Positions 18,963 to 24,897 of a stretch of 54,572 nucleotides of DNA are shown one piece after another. The notes under the pieces are model-generated. The model ran no database searches. It was not told the origin of the DNA and worked only from the letters and a program-made list of their open reading frames with translations. The stretch is taken from the NCBI GenBank assembly GCA_902538085.1, contig CACBDV010000006.1:1-54572 (forward strand), in the 5' to 3' direction. Origin of the DNA: an uncultured Alphaproteobacteria bacterium. GTDB taxonomy: Bacteria; Pseudomonadota; Alphaproteobacteria; HIMB59. The translations under genes and the position numbers were made by a program. The first letter of the stretch is position 1. The number at the start of each line of letters is the position of its first letter.

Positions 18963-19721
18963 CTACTTCATTTCATCAATTATTTTTTTTAAAGTTCTTG
19001 ATGTAAGATCTAGAATTCTTTTTCCTTTATCTGCAGAGGATTTTGTAGGATTGCCAATTATACCTGTCTTGGATAAATCTTTTGTATTCCAAGCTCTTTT
19101 AATTGTTCTTTCATAAGAAATTATTTTTTTAGATTTAAAGTCAGATGAGAGTTTGTTTCTTTTAATTTTATTTAATTTTATCAATTCTGGATAAAGGTGG
19201 AGCATTATTGATGTTTCAAATTCACCTCCATGATATCCATAAAGTAATTCCTTTTTTGGAATAATTTTTTCAAAACCTTTAAATAAAAAATAATGTGCCT
19301 TAACAATATCGACAGCTTTATATCTACTTATAATTTCTTTAGCAGCTATATCTAAGTGACTAATTTGTCCGCCATGACTATTTAAAAAGATAAATTTTTT
19401 ATATCTACGAATACATAACTCACCAACTATGCTGATAATATAATCAATATAATTTGTAGACTTCGAAGATAGAGTGCCCTCAAAGTTATTATGCTCACTC
19501 GCTGAACCTATAGAGATATTTGGTAGAATTAAATATTTATTAAGTTTGGGATATTTCTTAACAAAAGTATTTAAAATTCCATCTAATATCAATTTATCAG
19601 TACCTGATGGAAGGTGTTCTCCATGTTGTTCTACAGATGAAAATGGGAGAATAAGTATTTTATTTTTACCTAATTTACTAATATCTGCTGATGTTAAATC
19701 GGACCAAAACTTTGATAGCAT
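18963..19721 (-). CDS. Creatininase-family amidohydrolase
   Basis: A 252-residue member of the creatininase superfamily, which also contains the FAPy deformylase ArfB and MftE. Metal-ligand blocks are EQHGEHLPSGTD (E31, H33, D42), LNSHGG (H116) and HGGEFETS (from H164). The usual Glu just after the SHGG His is not obvious. Given the GTP cyclohydrolase II and RibD homologues in the same cluster, deformylation of a formamidopyrimidine (the ArfB reaction) is the most attractive role, but this is inference. It is divergent from the BchC-like gene by 29 bases and ends flush against tRNA-Cys. Confidence 0.85.
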   Translation of the reverse strand: MLSKFWSDLTSADISKLGKNKILILPFSSVEQHGEHLPSGTDKLILDGILNTFVKKYPKLNKYLILPNISIGSASEHNNFEGTLSSKSTNYIDYIISIVGELCIRRYKKFIFLNSHGGQISHLDIAAKEIISRYKAVDIVKAHYFLFKGFEKIIPKKELLYGYHGGEFETSIMLHLYPELIKLNKIKRNKLSSDFKSKKIISYERTIKRAWNTKDLSKTGIIGNPTKSSADKGKRILDLTSRTLKKIIDEMK

Positions 19722-19750
19722 AAGTGATATTTAACATTTATATAATTATT

Positions 19751-20713
19751 ATGGAAACTTATTCTCTATGGCTTAAGAATGAAAATAAACCAATTATTAA
19801 GAAAAAAATACTAAGCTATAAAAAAAATTCTAAAACTGTTCTTGTAAAAACTCTTTATTCAGGAATTAGTAAGGGTACTGAGAGATTAGTAGCATCTGGT
19901 AATATTAGCAAAGATCAGTTCGATATAATGAAATCTCCTTTTCAAGAGGGATCTTTTTCTTTTCCAATTAAATACGGTTACATTAATGTTGGTAAAATAG
20001 TTGAAGGCCCAAAAAAATATTTAAATAAAAATACATTCTGCCTTTACCCTCATCAGTCACTATTTAAGATTGATATAAATAATGTGAATATTTTAAAAGG
20101 TAGTGGTGATATTCGAAAATATTTACTAACAGCAAATATGGAAACAGCTATTAATATCTTTTGGGATACCCAAGCAAAATTAAATAACAAAATATTGATA
20201 ATAGGGATGGGCTCTGTTGGTATTTTAACTGCATACTATTATAAATTACTAAAATTTAAAAATGTCTTTATTACTGACATAAATATTAAAAAGAAGAAAT
20301 TTGCTAATATTTTAGGACTAAAATTTATTAATTTTAAAAAAATTAAAGATTTAGATGTTATAATTAATACAACATCTAATTATGATGTATTAAACCAATC
20401 ACTAAAAAAATTAAATTTAGAGGGAAAATTTATTGAGGCTAGTTGGTATGGAAATAGAAAAGGTCATATAAATTTAGGAGGTAATTTTCACTCAAAGAGA
20501 TTAAAAATTATTGGTTCTCAAGTTTCAAATATTCCAGAATATTTATCAAAAAAATATGATTATAAAAAGAGATTGAATTTAGCAATTAATGCTTTATCTA
20601 ATAACCAACTTCTTAAATTAATAAACACTGAAAGTGACTTTAAGGATCTAGAGAAAGATTATATTTCAATATTAAATAATCCAGAAAGCGTAATGCATGC
20701 TATAAAGTATTAA
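19751..20713 (+). CDS. MDR-superfamily dehydrogenase, BchC-like, lacking catalytic zinc
   Basis: About 320 residues from the ATG at 19751. A longer ORF begins at 19724, but its extra residues (MIFNIYIII) look like translated spacer. The SGISKGTERL motif (37-46) is characteristic of the zinc-less BchC-type medium-chain dehydrogenases, and the Rossmann turn is IIGMGSVG (near 155). No GHE-type zinc ligands are seen. It is first in the four-gene rightward unit with PTPS-like, glycosyltransferase and methyltransferase genes. A bacteriochlorophyll role is unlikely since no other bch gene is present; oxidation of a sugar or side-chain hydroxyl is more likely. Confidence 0.82.
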   Translation: METYSLWLKNENKPIIKKKILSYKKNSKTVLVKTLYSGISKGTERLVASGNISKDQFDIMKSPFQEGSFSFPIKYGYINVGKIVEGPKKYLNKNTFCLYPHQSLFKIDINNVNILKGSGDIRKYLLTANMETAINIFWDTQAKLNNKILIIGMGSVGILTAYYYKLLKFKNVFITDINIKKKKFANILGLKFINFKKIKDLDVIINTTSNYDVLNQSLKKLNLEGKFIEASWYGNRKGHINLGGNFHSKRLKIIGSQVSNIPEYLSKKYDYKKRLNLAINALSNNQLLKLINTESDFKDLEKDYISILNNPESVMHAIKY

Positions 20714-20714
20714 A

Positions 20715-21122
20715 ATGTATTCAATTACTGTTCGAAATAATATTTTAATTGCTCATTCTCTCCCGGGTGAGGTTTTTGGACCAGCACAAAATATGCATGG
20801 AGCGACCTACATAGTTGACGCTGAGTTTTATGCAAAAGAGATTAATAAATATAACATTATTATGGATCTCGGGGTTGTAACAGAAATTCTCTCCGACGTA
20901 TTAAAATTTTATAGTTATAAAAATTTAGACGAAGTTGAAGAGTTTAAAAATATAATTACCTCTACGGAATTTCTTGCTAAAGATATTTTTGATAGAATAT
21001 GCGATAAATTACAAAAAGATTACTTAGAAGATTTTAACAAGTTGCATAAAATTAAAATTATTTTAACTGAGTCAAATGTAGCTTGGGCTTCTTATGAACA
21101 AGAGATCAGTAATACACAATAA
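20715..21122 (+). CDS. 6-pyruvoyl-tetrahydropterin synthase / QueD-like protein with altered active site
   Basis: A 135-residue T-fold protein. The zinc His in IAHS (H14) and the first His of the HGH motif (H28) remain, but the motif reads MHGATY, so the second zinc His is Ala30. The catalytic Cys, normally four residues before that motif, is Ala24 (GPAQNMHG). The pterin-anchoring Glu (LTES, E119) is kept. This suggests binding of a pterin-like ring without standard PTPS or QueD chemistry. It is one base after the dehydrogenase gene, and its 3' end overlaps the glycosyltransferase gene by 29 bases. Confidence 0.85.
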   Translation: MYSITVRNNILIAHSLPGEVFGPAQNMHGATYIVDAEFYAKEINKYNIIMDLGVVTEILSDVLKFYSYKNLDEVEEFKNIITSTEFLAKDIFDRICDKLQKDYLEDFNKLHKIKIILTESNVAWASYEQEISNTQ

Positions 21123-22137
21123 ATCTTATTATTTTATTTATCCGGGTAATATTAATACAAAAACAGGCGGTTACATTTATGAAAAAAATATATTAAAAAG
21201 AGCAAAAAAAATTAAATTTAATTTAAATGCTATCAAACTTGCTAACAGCTTTCCCTTTCCTAAAGAAAATGACTTAAAAAATCTAAAAAAAACTTTAGAA
21301 AAATTACCTGATAATTCAGTTCTAATTTTTGACGGATTAGTTTTTGAGTGTATTGATAGTATAATTAACTATTTAGATAGATTTGTAGTAATAGCTCTTA
21401 TACACCACCCTCTTTATCTAGAATTTAATGGTAATCAAAGTCAATTTTTTCTTAAGAACGCTAAAAAATTATATAAGAAAACGAAAAAAATAATTGTAAC
21501 TTCAAATGATACAAAACAACTAATTTTTGAAAAATTTAAAATTAATAAGCGAAAAATTCAAGTTGTAGAGCCTGGAATAGAAAAATTAAAAAAATATAAA
21601 TTAAAAAGGGATAAAAATATAAATTTACTATCTGTGGGAAGTATTATTGAGAGAAAAAATTATCATTATCTGTTAAACGAATTAAGATACATGGATAAAA
21701 TAAAATTAAATATTGTAGGAGATATAACTAGAGAGAGTAAATACTATAATAGATTACTAAAAATTATAAGTAATTATAGATTAAGTAAAAAAGTTAAGTT
21801 TCATAGTAATGTATCGACTAATTTATTATCAAAACTATATTCTAAGTGTGACTTCTATGTATCAGTAAGCAAATATGAAGGTTTTGGTATGTCACTTGCT
21901 AATGCCCTTCAACTCAAAAAAATGATTATTGCATATAAAACTAAAACAATTATGAGTACTCTAAAAAAGGATGGAATTATCTACTTAAATAATTTCAAAG
22001 AAAAAAGTTTATCAAAATTAATTACTAAAAATGCATTTAATTCAGATTTATCAAAAAAATTATCACAAAATAAGAGAAAATTTTTAACACCAATACAATC
22101 TGGGGATCTTTTTATCAAGATAATAAAAGATGCATAA
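21094..22137 (+). CDS. GT4-family glycosyltransferase
   Basis: A 347-residue GT-B fold enzyme. The N-terminal YFIYPGNINTKTGGYIYEKN holds the glycine-rich acceptor loop. VEPGIEK, SVGSIIERKNYHYLL and the C-terminal KYEGFGMSLANALQ (E-x7-E nucleotide-sugar region) are typical GT4 signatures. The start at 21094 makes a 29-base overlap with the PTPS-like gene; it is the only ATG giving an intact first strand. It probably attaches a sugar to the pterin-like product of the cluster. The next gene overlaps by 8 bases. Confidence 0.87.
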   Translation: MNKRSVIHNKSYYFIYPGNINTKTGGYIYEKNILKRAKKIKFNLNAIKLANSFPFPKENDLKNLKKTLEKLPDNSVLIFDGLVFECIDSIINYLDRFVVIALIHHPLYLEFNGNQSQFFLKNAKKLYKKTKKIIVTSNDTKQLIFEKFKINKRKIQVVEPGIEKLKKYKLKRDKNINLLSVGSIIERKNYHYLLNELRYMDKIKLNIVGDITRESKYYNRLLKIISNYRLSKKVKFHSNVSTNLLSKLYSKCDFYVSVSKYEGFGMSLANALQLKKMIIAYKTKTIMSTLKKDGIIYLNNFKEKSLSKLITKNAFNSDLSKKLSQNKRKFLTPIQSGDLFIKIIKDA

Positions 22138-22918
22138 ATTTAATAATGATTGGCTATTTCTTCGTGAGAAAATTGATAAAGTTTCAAGAAATAAAAAAAT
22201 TATAGAAAAAATTAATAAATATTTTCAAGACTACAAAATATTGTCTATCGCTGATTTAGGTTGTGGAACAGGTTCCAACTATAGATATTTGTCCCCTAAA
22301 CTTAAAAAAAGGCAATCATGGGATATGATAGACATATCATTTGAGTCAATTAAAGAATTTAAGAAAAAAACAAATAATAAGAATAAAATTATAAATATAA
22401 ATTATAAAAAATTTGATTTAATCAAAAATATAAAAAGTTTTAAATTCGAAAAATACGATATTATTACAGGATCTGCGTATTTAGATATAATGCCAAAAAA
22501 TTGGTATATAGAATTTAAAAAACAAAATCTAAATACAAAAGTTATATATTTTTCGATTAATTATGATGGATTTTTTAAATTCCACCCAAAACATAATGAT
22601 GATCAATACGTTTTAAATCTATTTAATAAAGATCAGGAGTCAGATAAAGGTATTGGGCAAAAAGCAGTTGGTAAAAACTGTAGTCAAATAATTAATAAAT
22701 TGTTTTCTAAGTCACACAAAACATTTGTTTTTGACTCGAGTTGGGATGTATCAAAGAATAAAAAATTTCAAAATATGTTTTTAGATTTTTGTGAAAATGT
22801 ACTTGAAAAAAATAAGATATCATTAGATAGGTGGTTAGATTTTAGAAGGGAAAATATTAAAAAAAATAAATCAAAATTTTTTCTAAGAAATAAAGATTTT
22901 TTAGCTTTAAAACTCTAA
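22130..22918 (+). CDS. Class I SAM-dependent methyltransferase
   Basis: A 262-residue methyltransferase. Motif I is IADLGCGTGSNYRYL (from about residue 40), followed by the acidic SWDMIDIS strand and a DIITGSAYLDIMP motif IV region. The N-terminal WLFLREKIDKVSRNK is a distinctive lead-in that I associate with methyltransferases found next to this glycosyltransferase type. Last of the rightward four-gene unit, it overlaps the glycosyltransferase by 8 bases and the convergent RibD-like gene by 12. Probably methylates the cluster product or its sugar. Confidence 0.85.
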   Translation: MHKFNNDWLFLREKIDKVSRNKKIIEKINKYFQDYKILSIADLGCGTGSNYRYLSPKLKKRQSWDMIDISFESIKEFKKKTNNKNKIININYKKFDLIKNIKSFKFEKYDIITGSAYLDIMPKNWYIEFKKQNLNTKVIYFSINYDGFFKFHPKHNDDQYVLNLFNKDQESDKGIGQKAVGKNCSQIINKLFSKSHKTFVFDSSWDVSKNKKFQNMFLDFCENVLEKNKISLDRWLDFRRENIKKNKSKFFLRNKDFLALKL

Positions 22919-23737
22919 GCTTACTATCATTTCTTCGCCAAATTTATAAATTTTATTTTTTGTTCTAATAACTTTTTTTAAATTTGTTATAGGTTTTATA
23001 TTTATAGAATTAATACCAGAACCAATAATTGTAGGTGCAATTATAAATTGCATAATATCTAATAATTTATTCTCAAGAAATTTAGATATAGTTTTAGAAC
23101 CACCTTCTACTAATACGAACTTAAAACCTAAATTATTTATATGTTTGTATATAAGATTTGTGAAATTTCTTTCAGGTAATTTATAAATTTGTGTATTATT
23201 TAAATTCTTTTTAATATTAGAGTGTGTGAATATGATATTTGAAAAACCATCTTTAAATATTTGATAGTTATTTGTTAATTTTAGTGACGGATCTATAATT
23301 ATCCTCTGAGGATTTGAGCCCTTAATTGCTCTTGTAGTGAGCAAGGGATTATCTTTTTTTATTGTATTTACACCAACTATAACTGCATCACACACTGAAC
23401 GAAGACTATGAAGGTATGAAATACTATTTTTATCATTAATGTAATGAGAATTGCCGTTTAAAAGTGCAATTTTACCGTCTAAGCTTTGTCCAATTTGACC
23501 GATATAAAATTTTTTTTTTATCATCAATATTGGTAACAAAATTTGTGCTATTTCATTTATTTTTTTTTCAATCTTACAATTAAAATTAACGCCATTTTTA
23601 TCAATTAAAATATGATTGGTTTTAGAATGTTGACTAAGTACAAACGATTTGTTAATTAAATCAATTCTTAAGATATTTGATTTTTTTTGTTTTTTTACAA
23701 ATTCAAATAGTGAAGAAATATTATGCTTTGTTATCAT
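22907..23737 (-). CDS. RibD reductase-domain protein without deaminase domain
   Basis: A 276-residue protein. Residues about 77-276 match the RibD C-terminal reductase: QSLDGKIA, YLHSLRSVCDAVIVGVNTI, KDNPLLTTR, NPQRIIIDP and LVEGGSKTISKFL. The zinc deaminase domain of full RibD is absent; in its place are about 75 residues with no motif I recognise. It would reduce a ribosylamino-pyrimidine (or pterin) with NADPH. The deaminase loss argues against housekeeping riboflavin synthesis. It is divergent from the GTP cyclohydrolase II-like gene by 41 bases. Confidence 0.87.
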   Translation of the reverse strand: MITKHNISSLFEFVKKQKKSNILRIDLINKSFVLSQHSKTNHILIDKNGVNFNCKIEKKINEIAQILLPILMIKKKFYIGQIGQSLDGKIALLNGNSHYINDKNSISYLHSLRSVCDAVIVGVNTIKKDNPLLTTRAIKGSNPQRIIIDPSLKLTNNYQIFKDGFSNIIFTHSNIKKNLNNTQIYKLPERNFTNLIYKHINNLGFKFVLVEGGSKTISKFLENKLLDIMQFIIAPTIIGSGINSINIKPITNLKKVIRTKNKIYKFGEEMIVSLEF

Positions 23738-23778
23738 TTTTCATCTGTATCAAGTACTATTGAGTATATATATAGTCT
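23738..23778. promoter_or_regulatory. Divergent promoter region of ribD-like and ribA-like genes
   Basis: The 41 bases between the two divergent start codons are the only non-coding sequence available to start both genes. They hold a TATATATATAG run usable as a -10 element in either direction. A shared control point is plausible; no operator or riboswitch such as the FMN element fits in this space. Confidence 0.35.
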
Positions 23779-24897
23779 ATGAGTTTAAAATCAAATTTTG
23801 GCACATTTATTGATAGAGCTATCAATGAGCTTAGAACCGGAAGACCAATAGTTATTAAAGAAAATAAAAATTATTGGATGTTCTTTAATATTGAACATTC
23901 GGACAATAAAATTCTAAATCAATTCAATCAATACCTACAAAAAGACAAATATCTTTTAATTACAAAACAAAAAGCAAAATCAATATTTGAAAATAAAGTA
24001 TCAACAAATATTTATTTAAAAATAAATGAAAAAATATCAAACAAATCTTTATTAAGTTTATTCATTAACCCTTTATCTGATCAAAATAAAATATTATTTA
24101 AAGATGAGCCTTATATCAAAAGTAAAGACTTCCATAATGTCTGTTTAGATATAGCCAAAAATGCGAAGGTAATACCGTCACTTGTATTTAAAAAAATTAA
24201 TTCTAAATACTATAAAAATATTGATAATCTAATATTACAACTTGGTCTATTAAGATTTAACCATAAAGAGTTAAAAAATCAGAATAAATTTATAACTAAT
24301 AGTATCAGATTAGTTTCAAGTGCAAATGTGCCCTTACCAAATGTTGCATCTACTACTTTTAATATTTTTAAGTCATATATTGGTGCTAGAAGACATATCG
24401 CGATCATAATTAAACCAAAAAATTTAAAACAACCAACAAATCTTAGAATTCACTCAGCTTGTTTTACTGGGGATATATTTCACTCTAGAAAATGCGATTG
24501 CGGAGAACAATTAAATAACTCTTTAAACTATATGGTTAAAAATAAAGGAGGTATTATCCTTTATTTAGATCAAGAAGGGAGAGGTATAGGGTTAGCCAAT
24601 AAAATGAGGGCATATTCTCTTCAGTCAAAAGGCTTGGATACTATTGATGCTGATCACAACATAGGTTTTTTAGATGATGAAAGAGATTTTAATATTGCCG
24701 CTAAGATACTTAAGTTATTAAAAGTAAATAAAGTCAATATTATCACAAATAATTTTACAAAAGTCTCTTCTCTTAAAAAAGCTGGTATTAAAATTGCCAA
24801 GCAAATAAATACAAAACCTACAATTAACAAATTTAATAAGAATTATTTTAAAACAAGAGTAAAAAAAACAGGTTACGGTTTTAAAAATTTAGACTAA
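23779..24897 (+). CDS. GTP cyclohydrolase II with degenerate RibB-like N-terminal domain
   Basis: A 372-residue protein. Residues about 170-372 are a GTP cyclohydrolase II domain with intact zinc cysteines C228, C239 and C241 (HSACFTGDIFHSRKCDCGEQL region) and DQEGRGIGL (264-272). The N-terminal 160 residues align in outline with DHBP synthase (RAINELRTGRPIVI), but the acidic DDEDRENEGD metal site is gone, so that activity is probably lost. It would open GTP to a pyrimidine with formate loss. Retention of only the GCH2 half fits a dedicated pathway rather than riboflavin synthesis. Confidence 0.88.
   Translation: MSLKSNFGTFIDRAINELRTGRPIVIKENKNYWMFFNIEHSDNKILNQFNQYLQKDKYLLITKQKAKSIFENKVSTNIYLKINEKISNKSLLSLFINPLSDQNKILFKDEPYIKSKDFHNVCLDIAKNAKVIPSLVFKKINSKYYKNIDNLILQLGLLRFNHKELKNQNKFITNSIRLVSSANVPLPNVASTTFNIFKSYIGARRHIAIIIKPKNLKQPTNLRIHSACFTGDIFHSRKCDCGEQLNNSLNYMVKNKGGIILYLDQEGRGIGLANKMRAYSLQSKGLDTIDADHNIGFLDDERDFNIAAKILKLLKVNKVNIITNNFTKVSSLKKAGIKIAKQINTKPTINKFNKNYFKTRVKKTGYGFKNLD

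Follow-up and report, generated by a model that had tools for sequence, protein, structure and literature searches.

What do seven adjacent genes of an uncultured alphaproteobacterium make together? The genes lie on a 54,572-nucleotide contig of the HIMB59 lineage (the window; assembly GCA_902538085.1, contig CACBDV010000006.1) and encode a creatininase-family hydrolase, a zinc-less dehydrogenase, a protein of the 6-pyruvoyltetrahydropterin synthase (PTPS) fold, a glycosyltransferase (GT), a methyltransferase (MT), a RibD-type reductase and a GTP cyclohydrolase II (GCH2). On balance, we favour the reading that they encode a pared-down form of a conserved pathway, one that leaves riboflavin synthesis at the first step and yields a glycosylated, methylated compound. 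The genome to which the window belongs, as contig C6, is 86% complete, with 1.25 Mb in 29 contigs, and absences from it are provisional.

Recurrence of the gene set across genomes

The PTPS-like gene was searched for in three samples, each counting the window's genome: it turned up in 37 of 60 near relatives (and in 10 of the 17 high-quality ones among these), in 45 of 385 genomes of the window's class and in 27 of 398 genomes of its phylum. A search for the dehydrogenase across the same 385 class genomes returned exactly the same 45, and the two genes stand side by side in all of these except one genome in which they fall on different contigs (G093) and one in which they are divergent and ~1.7 kb apart (G290). 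In a genome of the same order (G037:C3:51895-52872, locus L046), the dehydrogenase match spans one in-frame TAA.

We also scanned GTDB, at one genome per species, with the alignment of the PTPS-like protein, which gave at least 586 confirmed relatives; the best 80 of these, kept with their organism names, come from Alpha-, Beta- and Gammaproteobacteria, Actinobacteria and Acidobacteria. Together with 36 loci of the class sample they make up the 116 loci scanned with profiles of the cluster families; since two pairs coincide, 114 of them are distinct. Four comparison loci (L066, L067, L069 and L082) stand outside these counts, and so does L169, which was left unused. As the PTPS-like gene served to find the loci, its presence in them is built in. 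The profiles were built from alphaproteobacterial proteins and several loci are clipped by contig ends, so missing matches may reflect under-detection, and genes outside the fetched flanks of a locus would escape the counts.

The dehydrogenase, PTPS-like, GT and MT genes, here called the core four, are complete in 105 of the 114 distinct loci, and the first two lie near each other on one strand in 114 of the 115 loci with both. A RibD-type reductase and/or a GCH2 occurs in 101 of the 114 (both in 42), a creatininase in 48 and all seven families in 21; counted over the 116 loci, GT reaches 114, MT 108, the reductase 79, GCH2 65 and the creatininase 48. Halomonas and Variovorax are among the carriers of the version with a RibD-type reductase. 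Because the same genes recur together across phyla, their grouping exceeds chance. The initial annotation, made from the window's letters, had proposed a single dedicated gene set with a GTP-opening enzyme, a glycosyltransferase and a methyltransferase, and had named co-occurrence in other genomes as a check; run as described here, that check came out in favour of the proposal.

In 11 loci, none of them at a contig edge, GT and MT are fused into one open reading frame (ORF); ten of these are in Halomonas, Vreelandella, Halovibrio or Marinobacter and one in a Burkholderiales bacterium; two further cases (L113 and L144) reach a contig end and are left out of this number. Pairwise protein distances correlate between the cluster genes (r 0.54–0.98, exceeding 0.8 in 31 of 36 pairs). 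A set inherited together would show this, though so would vertical descent by itself.

Outside the window's clade the cluster is often larger, with the frequent order CDP-alcohol phosphatidyltransferase, dehydrogenase, PTPS-like, GT, MT, YbhN-type flippase, RibD-type reductase, GCH2 and creatininase. The two extra families, typed by Pfam on examples (PF01066 for the phosphatidyltransferase, PF03706 for the YbhN-type protein), occur in 79 and 57 of the 116 loci, respectively, and all nine families in 15. The phosphatidyltransferase is found in 33 of 38 actinobacterial, 18 of 23 gammaproteobacterial, 10 of 12 betaproteobacterial and 12 of 36 class-sample alphaproteobacterial loci, and the flippase in 37, 17, 1 and 0 of the same loci. 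These lipid-type partners hint at a membrane-linked product. Searches of the window's genome (86% complete) left PF03706 unmatched, and its three genes of the CDP-alcohol phosphatidyltransferase family stay far from cluster-type scores: on the model of that type, two reach 19.9 and 25.4 bits and one misses E 10, compared with at least 98.8 bits for those in cluster loci; for these two reasons the genome appears to hold a reduced form of the larger cluster. The seven genes first singled out in the window stand as a real, conserved set, but one that looks like a subset of a cluster with membrane-lipid-type genes.

Less regular neighbours among the 116 loci are YceI (24), a sulfatase-like membrane protein (21), an FkbM methyltransferase (20) and cytochrome b561 (9). 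YceI, seen for example in L058 and L081, occurs together with cytochrome b561 in two loci; genes of these two kinds adjoin each other in E. coli. The glucan glucosyltransferase MdoH is encoded in 17 loci at more than 650 bits and additionally in L139 at 91 bits, none of them actinobacterial. Its recurrence is in Proteobacteria: it sits just upstream of the dehydrogenase in L052, L053, L054, L063, L064 and L065 and is also present in L104 and other Halomonas-type loci. Osmoregulated periplasmic glucan as a general target was rejected on this distribution and on the lack of an MdoG match in the window's genome.

Parts of the set lie on annotated plasmids of Candidatus Thiodictyon syntrophicum, Rhizobium sp. 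SL42, Rhodobacteraceae SC52 and Palleronia (five plasmid records were opened among 20 matching ones). On the SC52 (L173) and Palleronia (L174) plasmids, the MT directly follows the PTPS-like gene and a ribokinase/PfkB-type sugar kinase gene is nearby; the Palleronia plasmid also carries an inositol-monophosphatase-type gene and, upstream, a GT4 gene. Near the cluster in other loci, no such kinase was found beyond one weak distant match. A link to glutathione S-transferase (GST) or glutamine-synthetase neighbours was rejected, GST occurring in 1 of 40 fetched loci (L070) and glutamine synthetase in L063, L064 and L070, and so was a role in anti-phage defence, for which the only sign was a weak methyltransferase match to mads_2 (28.8 bits).

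Gene products and residue states

The seven ORFs in the window and their domains were confirmed as initially annotated by an ORF check and by Pfam (Table 1). They are contiguous, yet do not form one operon, with the creatininase and RibD-type genes on the minus strand.

Table 1. Location and domain match of the seven window genes (positions in the window; SAM, S-adenosylmethionine).
Product	Position	Strand	Match
Creatininase-family amidohydrolase, candidate formamide hydrolase (putative ArfB-like role)	18963-19721	-	PF02633, 178.7 bits, E 1.7e-52
Zinc-less medium-chain dehydrogenase, BchC-like (core gene)	19724-20713	+	ADH_zinc_N sub-threshold, 21.2 vs 31.8 bits
PTPS-fold protein, SCO6650 (PDB 3d7j) family (core gene)	20715-21122	+	PF01242, E 6e-21
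GT4-type glycosyltransferase (core gene)	21094-22137	+	PF00534, 81.8 bits, E 6e-23
SAM-dependent methyltransferase (core gene)	22130-22918	+	PF13649, 32.8 bits, E 1e-7
RibD-type reductase without deaminase domain	22907-23737	-	PF01872, 100.5 bits, E 1.4e-28
GTP cyclohydrolase II (GCH2)	23779-24897	+	PF00925, 162.4 bits, E 9e-48

The GCH2 protein consists of a dead RibB half (residues ~1–175) and an intact GCH2 domain (~182–343). Its Cys 228, 239 and 241 and a tyrosine at position 279, the switch residue, are invariant among 13 cluster GCH2s and align with those of the E. coli structure 2bz0 (E 1.3e-40), and the QEGRG and DERD regions are conserved. Of the GCH2 family models, NF001591 was passed (216 vs 148 bits) and TIGR00505 was not (183.5 vs 205.85). 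Judged by its intact zinc cysteines and active-site motifs, the protein is a member of GTP cyclohydrolase II.

With hhalign run over the whole protein, the N-terminal half pairs with the live-looking RibB half of the RibBA encoded in this genome, at a probability of 93.9 and 16% identity. It is missing the DRENEGD loop and the HTEAAVD motif, both of which we take to be functional in RibB, and a Pfam scan of the protein did not match the RibB domain (PF00926). The dead-looking RibB half noticed at the outset was thus read correctly, and a bifunctional RibBA was rejected on the same grounds. Additionally, we rejected an enzyme of the SCO6655 type: this GCH2 paralogue of Streptomyces coelicolor reportedly makes formylated FAPy because a Tyr is Met, and the window protein keeps Tyr 279.

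The PTPS-like protein matches PDB 3d7j, which is SCO6650 of S. coelicolor, with E 1.3e-34 (phmmer) and E 3.5e-60 (profile), and by these matches is an SCO6650-type family member. Throughout the 23 rows of its alignment (A1), one zinc His is replaced by Ala, the catalytic Cys by Ala and the catalytic His by Tyr, Phe or Leu; the Asp beside the catalytic His is kept in two rows, and none of the 23 has lost the pocket Glu or the remaining two zinc His, these residues presumably having the roles that they have in PTPS. A 6-pyruvoyl- or 6-carboxytetrahydropterin synthase (PTPS/QueD) acting in queuosine synthesis was rejected on these losses; database records name the gene '6-carboxytetrahydropterin synthase', with a queuosine note. 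The SCO6650 structure paper is said to report neither zinc nor PTPS activity. Matches of the protein to RecA constructs in PDB (best E 7e-10) were taken to be spurious, no stretch passing alone. On the Streptomyces anthocyanicus plasmid NZ_CP109229.1 (L170), an SCO6650-type gene adjoins a MEKHLA-domain gene and cupin-domain genes, and none of the other cluster genes is annotated around it.

For the dehydrogenase, the best NCBIfam match is bchC (52 bits, cut-off 291), and Foldseek pairs its AlphaFold model (mean pLDDT 91) with medium-chain alcohol dehydrogenases of the PDB. No Cys is invariant in its 21-row alignment (A2), and a zinc enzyme of the medium-chain dehydrogenase/reductase (MDR) type was rejected, the MDR fold being present and the zinc ligands not. 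The creatininase stays under the cut-off of the MftE model (102.7 bits, cut-off 172) and was unmatched by the NCBIfam ArfB model at E 0.001. A Pfam scan of the RibD-type reductase gave no deaminase match; it scores 83.9 bits with TIGR01508, an ArfC-type model (cut-off 186.45), and its nearest PDB entries are RibD/ArfC-type reductases.

A candidate pathway and its alternatives

From gene content, conservation, co-occurrence and residue states, we infer the following route. GCH2 would open GTP, giving 2,5-diamino-6-ribosylamino-pyrimidinone phosphate (APy); from its kept switch Tyr, the window enzyme is predicted to make APy and not formylated FAPy. Where GCH2 stops at FAPy, as in the Streptomyces type, removal of the formyl group would be left to the creatininase. 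The stand-alone reductase would turn the ribosyl into a ribityl chain with the ring not deaminated, in the archaeal/fungal order, and reduction of this kind would lead away from riboflavin. Oxidation and ring work on the resulting ribityl-diaminopyrimidine, perhaps giving an 8-substituted pterin, may be done by the zinc-less dehydrogenase and by the PTPS-fold protein with its remodelled catalytic site, and GT and MT would add a sugar and a methyl group in sequence. The betaproteobacterial loci, with a reductase in 11 of 12 and a GCH2 in 2 of 12, fit a branch point at APy, with APy supplied by the riboflavin pathway. In the many loci that have them, the CDP-alcohol phosphatidyltransferase would join the product to a lipid and the YbhN-type flippase would move it across the membrane.

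A tentative extension, which we place on the unlikely side, takes the product of the full cluster to be a membrane-anchored, glycosylated, methylated ribityl-pyrimidine or 8-ribityl-pterin, its ribityl phosphate joined to lipid by the phosphatidyltransferase and the whole flipped by YbhN. Such a compound would have an envelope redox or head-group role, in which YceI and cytochrome b561 would occasionally take part; it might be attached to periplasmic glucans. The clade of the window would then retain the soluble part alone.

In Actinobacteria, the presence of the creatininase goes with the state of the switch residue. This residue is Met in 22, His in 2 and Tyr in 10 of the 34 actinobacterial loci with a GCH2, and a creatininase is present in all 24 loci in which the Tyr is lost and in none of the 10 in which it is kept. 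The pairing is as expected if the creatininase deformylates FAPy, and is suggestive, at the level of sequence, of a deformylase role in this phylum.

Several observations weigh against the proposed pathway. The actinobacterial pairing rests on few lineages, mainly Streptomyces versus Micromonosporaceae. Outside Actinobacteria, all 30 readable cluster GCH2s carry Tyr, and 20 of these 30 have a creatininase in the locus, which argues against a simple deformylase role there, the window included. The NCBIfam ArfB and ArfC models were not reached at their cut-offs, the relative in L104 giving 25.8 bits with the ArfB model (cut-off 180). The reductase and GCH2, with their 79 and 65 occurrences in 116 loci and only 42 distinct loci holding both, are each missing from many loci, which leaves room for another substrate of the core four. 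Finally, 21 of the 22 Met-type actinobacterial loci are without a match to the RibD-type reductase, at a lax threshold too, and in protein distance the reductase is the gene least correlated with the core (r 0.54–0.73 with the dehydrogenase, PTPS-like, GT and MT proteins); its absence there and its low correlation both count against a fixed role for it. A PNPOx-like split-barrel gene is present in six Streptomyces loci (L114, L120, L122, L136, L147 and L157), following GCH2 in L120, and could stand in for the RibD-type reductase, which is unmatched in those six. As a general actinobacterial replacement it was rejected, being found in 6 of 38 loci only.

A rival account has the core four producing a sugar or lipid of the envelope that has nothing to do with GTP, the nearby GCH2 and reductase only boosting flavin supply: the core four stay together in many loci where GCH2 or the reductase is absent, and the phosphatidyltransferase, YbhN, YceI, sulfatase-like and MdoH genes recur near them. 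We think this account unlikely, however, as the pocket Glu is kept in every row of the PTPS-fold alignment, as 101 of 114 loci have a reductase and/or GCH2, and as the reductase lacks the deaminase needed for riboflavin. We likewise hold it improbable that the pathway is a pterin pathway starting from GTP cyclohydrolase I, in which the PTPS-like protein and the dehydrogenase would act on dihydroneopterin-type substrates and the RibD-type protein would be a dihydropterin reductase. Such a route would agree with the PTPS fold and its kept pocket Glu; moreover, RibD_C is related to the dihydrofolate-reductase fold and pterin glycosides are known in cyanobacteria. Against it, the PTPS catalytic Cys and His are lost, and the co-localised GTP enzyme is GCH2 in 65 of the 116 loci (no search for GTP cyclohydrolase I was made).

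Riboflavin supply and related systems

A branch from riboflavin synthesis at its first step, the reading we favour, bears on the riboflavin genes of this genome, which lie in a separate operon on contig C5 comprising RibD, RibE, RibBA, RibH and NusB (RibD and RibBA scanned, the others named by eye). The RibD there has both deaminase and reductase domains. The RibBA there has a strong RibB domain (262.8 bits) and a weak GCH2 half (58.9 bits) without zinc cysteines. The two proteins show complementary decay, this RibBA with a live-looking RibB and a degenerate GCH2, the window protein with an intact GCH2 and a dead RibB. Two GCH2 matches in total were found in the genome (86% complete), the window copy being the sole intact one found. 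Among six genomes of the genus that carry the PTPS-like gene and are at least 92% complete (G004, G016, G017, G019, G023 and G028), five have, judged by score in the hit tables, only the cluster GCH2 and a low-scoring one, and G023 has a second intact GCH2. The single-contig genus genome G029, in which the PTPS-like gene was unmatched, holds a different intact GCH2 and a low-scoring one. With no second intact GCH2 found in the window's genome and the GCH2 half of RibBA degenerate, the window enzyme probably feeds riboflavin as well, that is, it is shared, in this genus. In genus g2 of the same order, a separate RibA of ~198 amino acids is present in 13 of the 15 genomes carrying the PTPS-like gene, and the cluster GCH2 there looks like a dedicated paralogue.

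The set had been described at the outset as separate from riboflavin synthesis, which holds in that riboflavin has its own operon on contig C5 but not for GCH2, which is probably shared. It had also been noted that the idea of a dedicated pathway would fail if the window's ribA and ribD were the organism's only riboflavin genes and complemented riboflavin auxotrophs; the first part of this seems to be so for ribA, but not for ribD, with its second copy on C5. RibE, RibH and the RibD deaminase are not among the seven window genes by Pfam, and a bacterial riboflavin operon was rejected on their absence and on the operon elsewhere. It is very improbable that the cluster is the organism's riboflavin front end with unrelated neighbours, as the sole intact GCH2 found here and in five of the six genus genomes would allow, given RibD, RibE, RibB and RibH in a separate operon, the separate RibA in genus g2 and a gene set conserved across phyla.

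We file the cluster with a known class, the pathways branching from riboflavin intermediates. It resembles SCO6650/SCO6655 of S. coelicolor in having the same PTPS-like family, and 21 Streptomyces loci combine a GCH2 with switch Met, a creatininase and core genes. Unlike this type, the window keeps the Tyr in its GCH2, has the dead RibB half and a RibD-type reductase, and is without the cluster-type CDP-alcohol phosphatidyltransferase and flippase (the S. coelicolor locus being represented by PDB 3d7j and by what is reported of SCO6650 and SCO6655). ArfA, ArfB and ArfC, the archaeal riboflavin/F420 front end, comprise GTP opening, a creatininase-family hydrolase and a reductase without deaminase, with deformylation followed by reduction and only then by deamination; the window set has the same three kinds of protein, but with GCH2 in place of the archaeal GTP cyclohydrolase III and accompanied by the core four. 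With the bacterial ribD-ribE-ribBA-ribH operon it has the GCH2 step, probably to APy, in common, but not RibE, RibH or the deaminase. Toxoflavin and deazapurine (toyocamycin/huimycin-type) clusters make GTP-derived heterocycles with a cyclohydrolase and methyl or sugar additions, and the product proposed here would be similar; however, a QueE/QueC-like domain is not among the window's seven (Pfam), and, to our knowledge, the dehydrogenase–PTPS-like pair is not part of those clusters.

The SCO6650 and SCO6655 genes had already been noticed in S. coelicolor. The S. coelicolor GCH2 paper is cited in excerpts of PMC3509567, and a table of PMC2853524 gives, under riboflavin metabolism, the expression of SCO6655 in S. 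coelicolor as anticorrelated (-0.61) with predicted flux, and that of SCO2687 likewise (-0.52); the former is weakly in line with a role outside riboflavin. A description of the cluster was not found in full-text literature, a coverage that most subscription papers fall outside. Apparently new are how widely the cluster occurs, which lipid-type partners it has, the fusion of GT with MT, the agreement between creatininase and switch residue, and the probable sharing with riboflavin synthesis in this genus.

Should the product prove to be a new compound derived from GTP, whether lipid-linked or soluble, a metabolite common among bacteria would have been overlooked, perhaps owing to the '6-carboxytetrahydropterin synthase' label on a marker gene that lacks the catalytic residues of that enzyme. 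The cluster would also be a natural example of how a switch in the GCH2 product goes along with the gain of a hydrolase.

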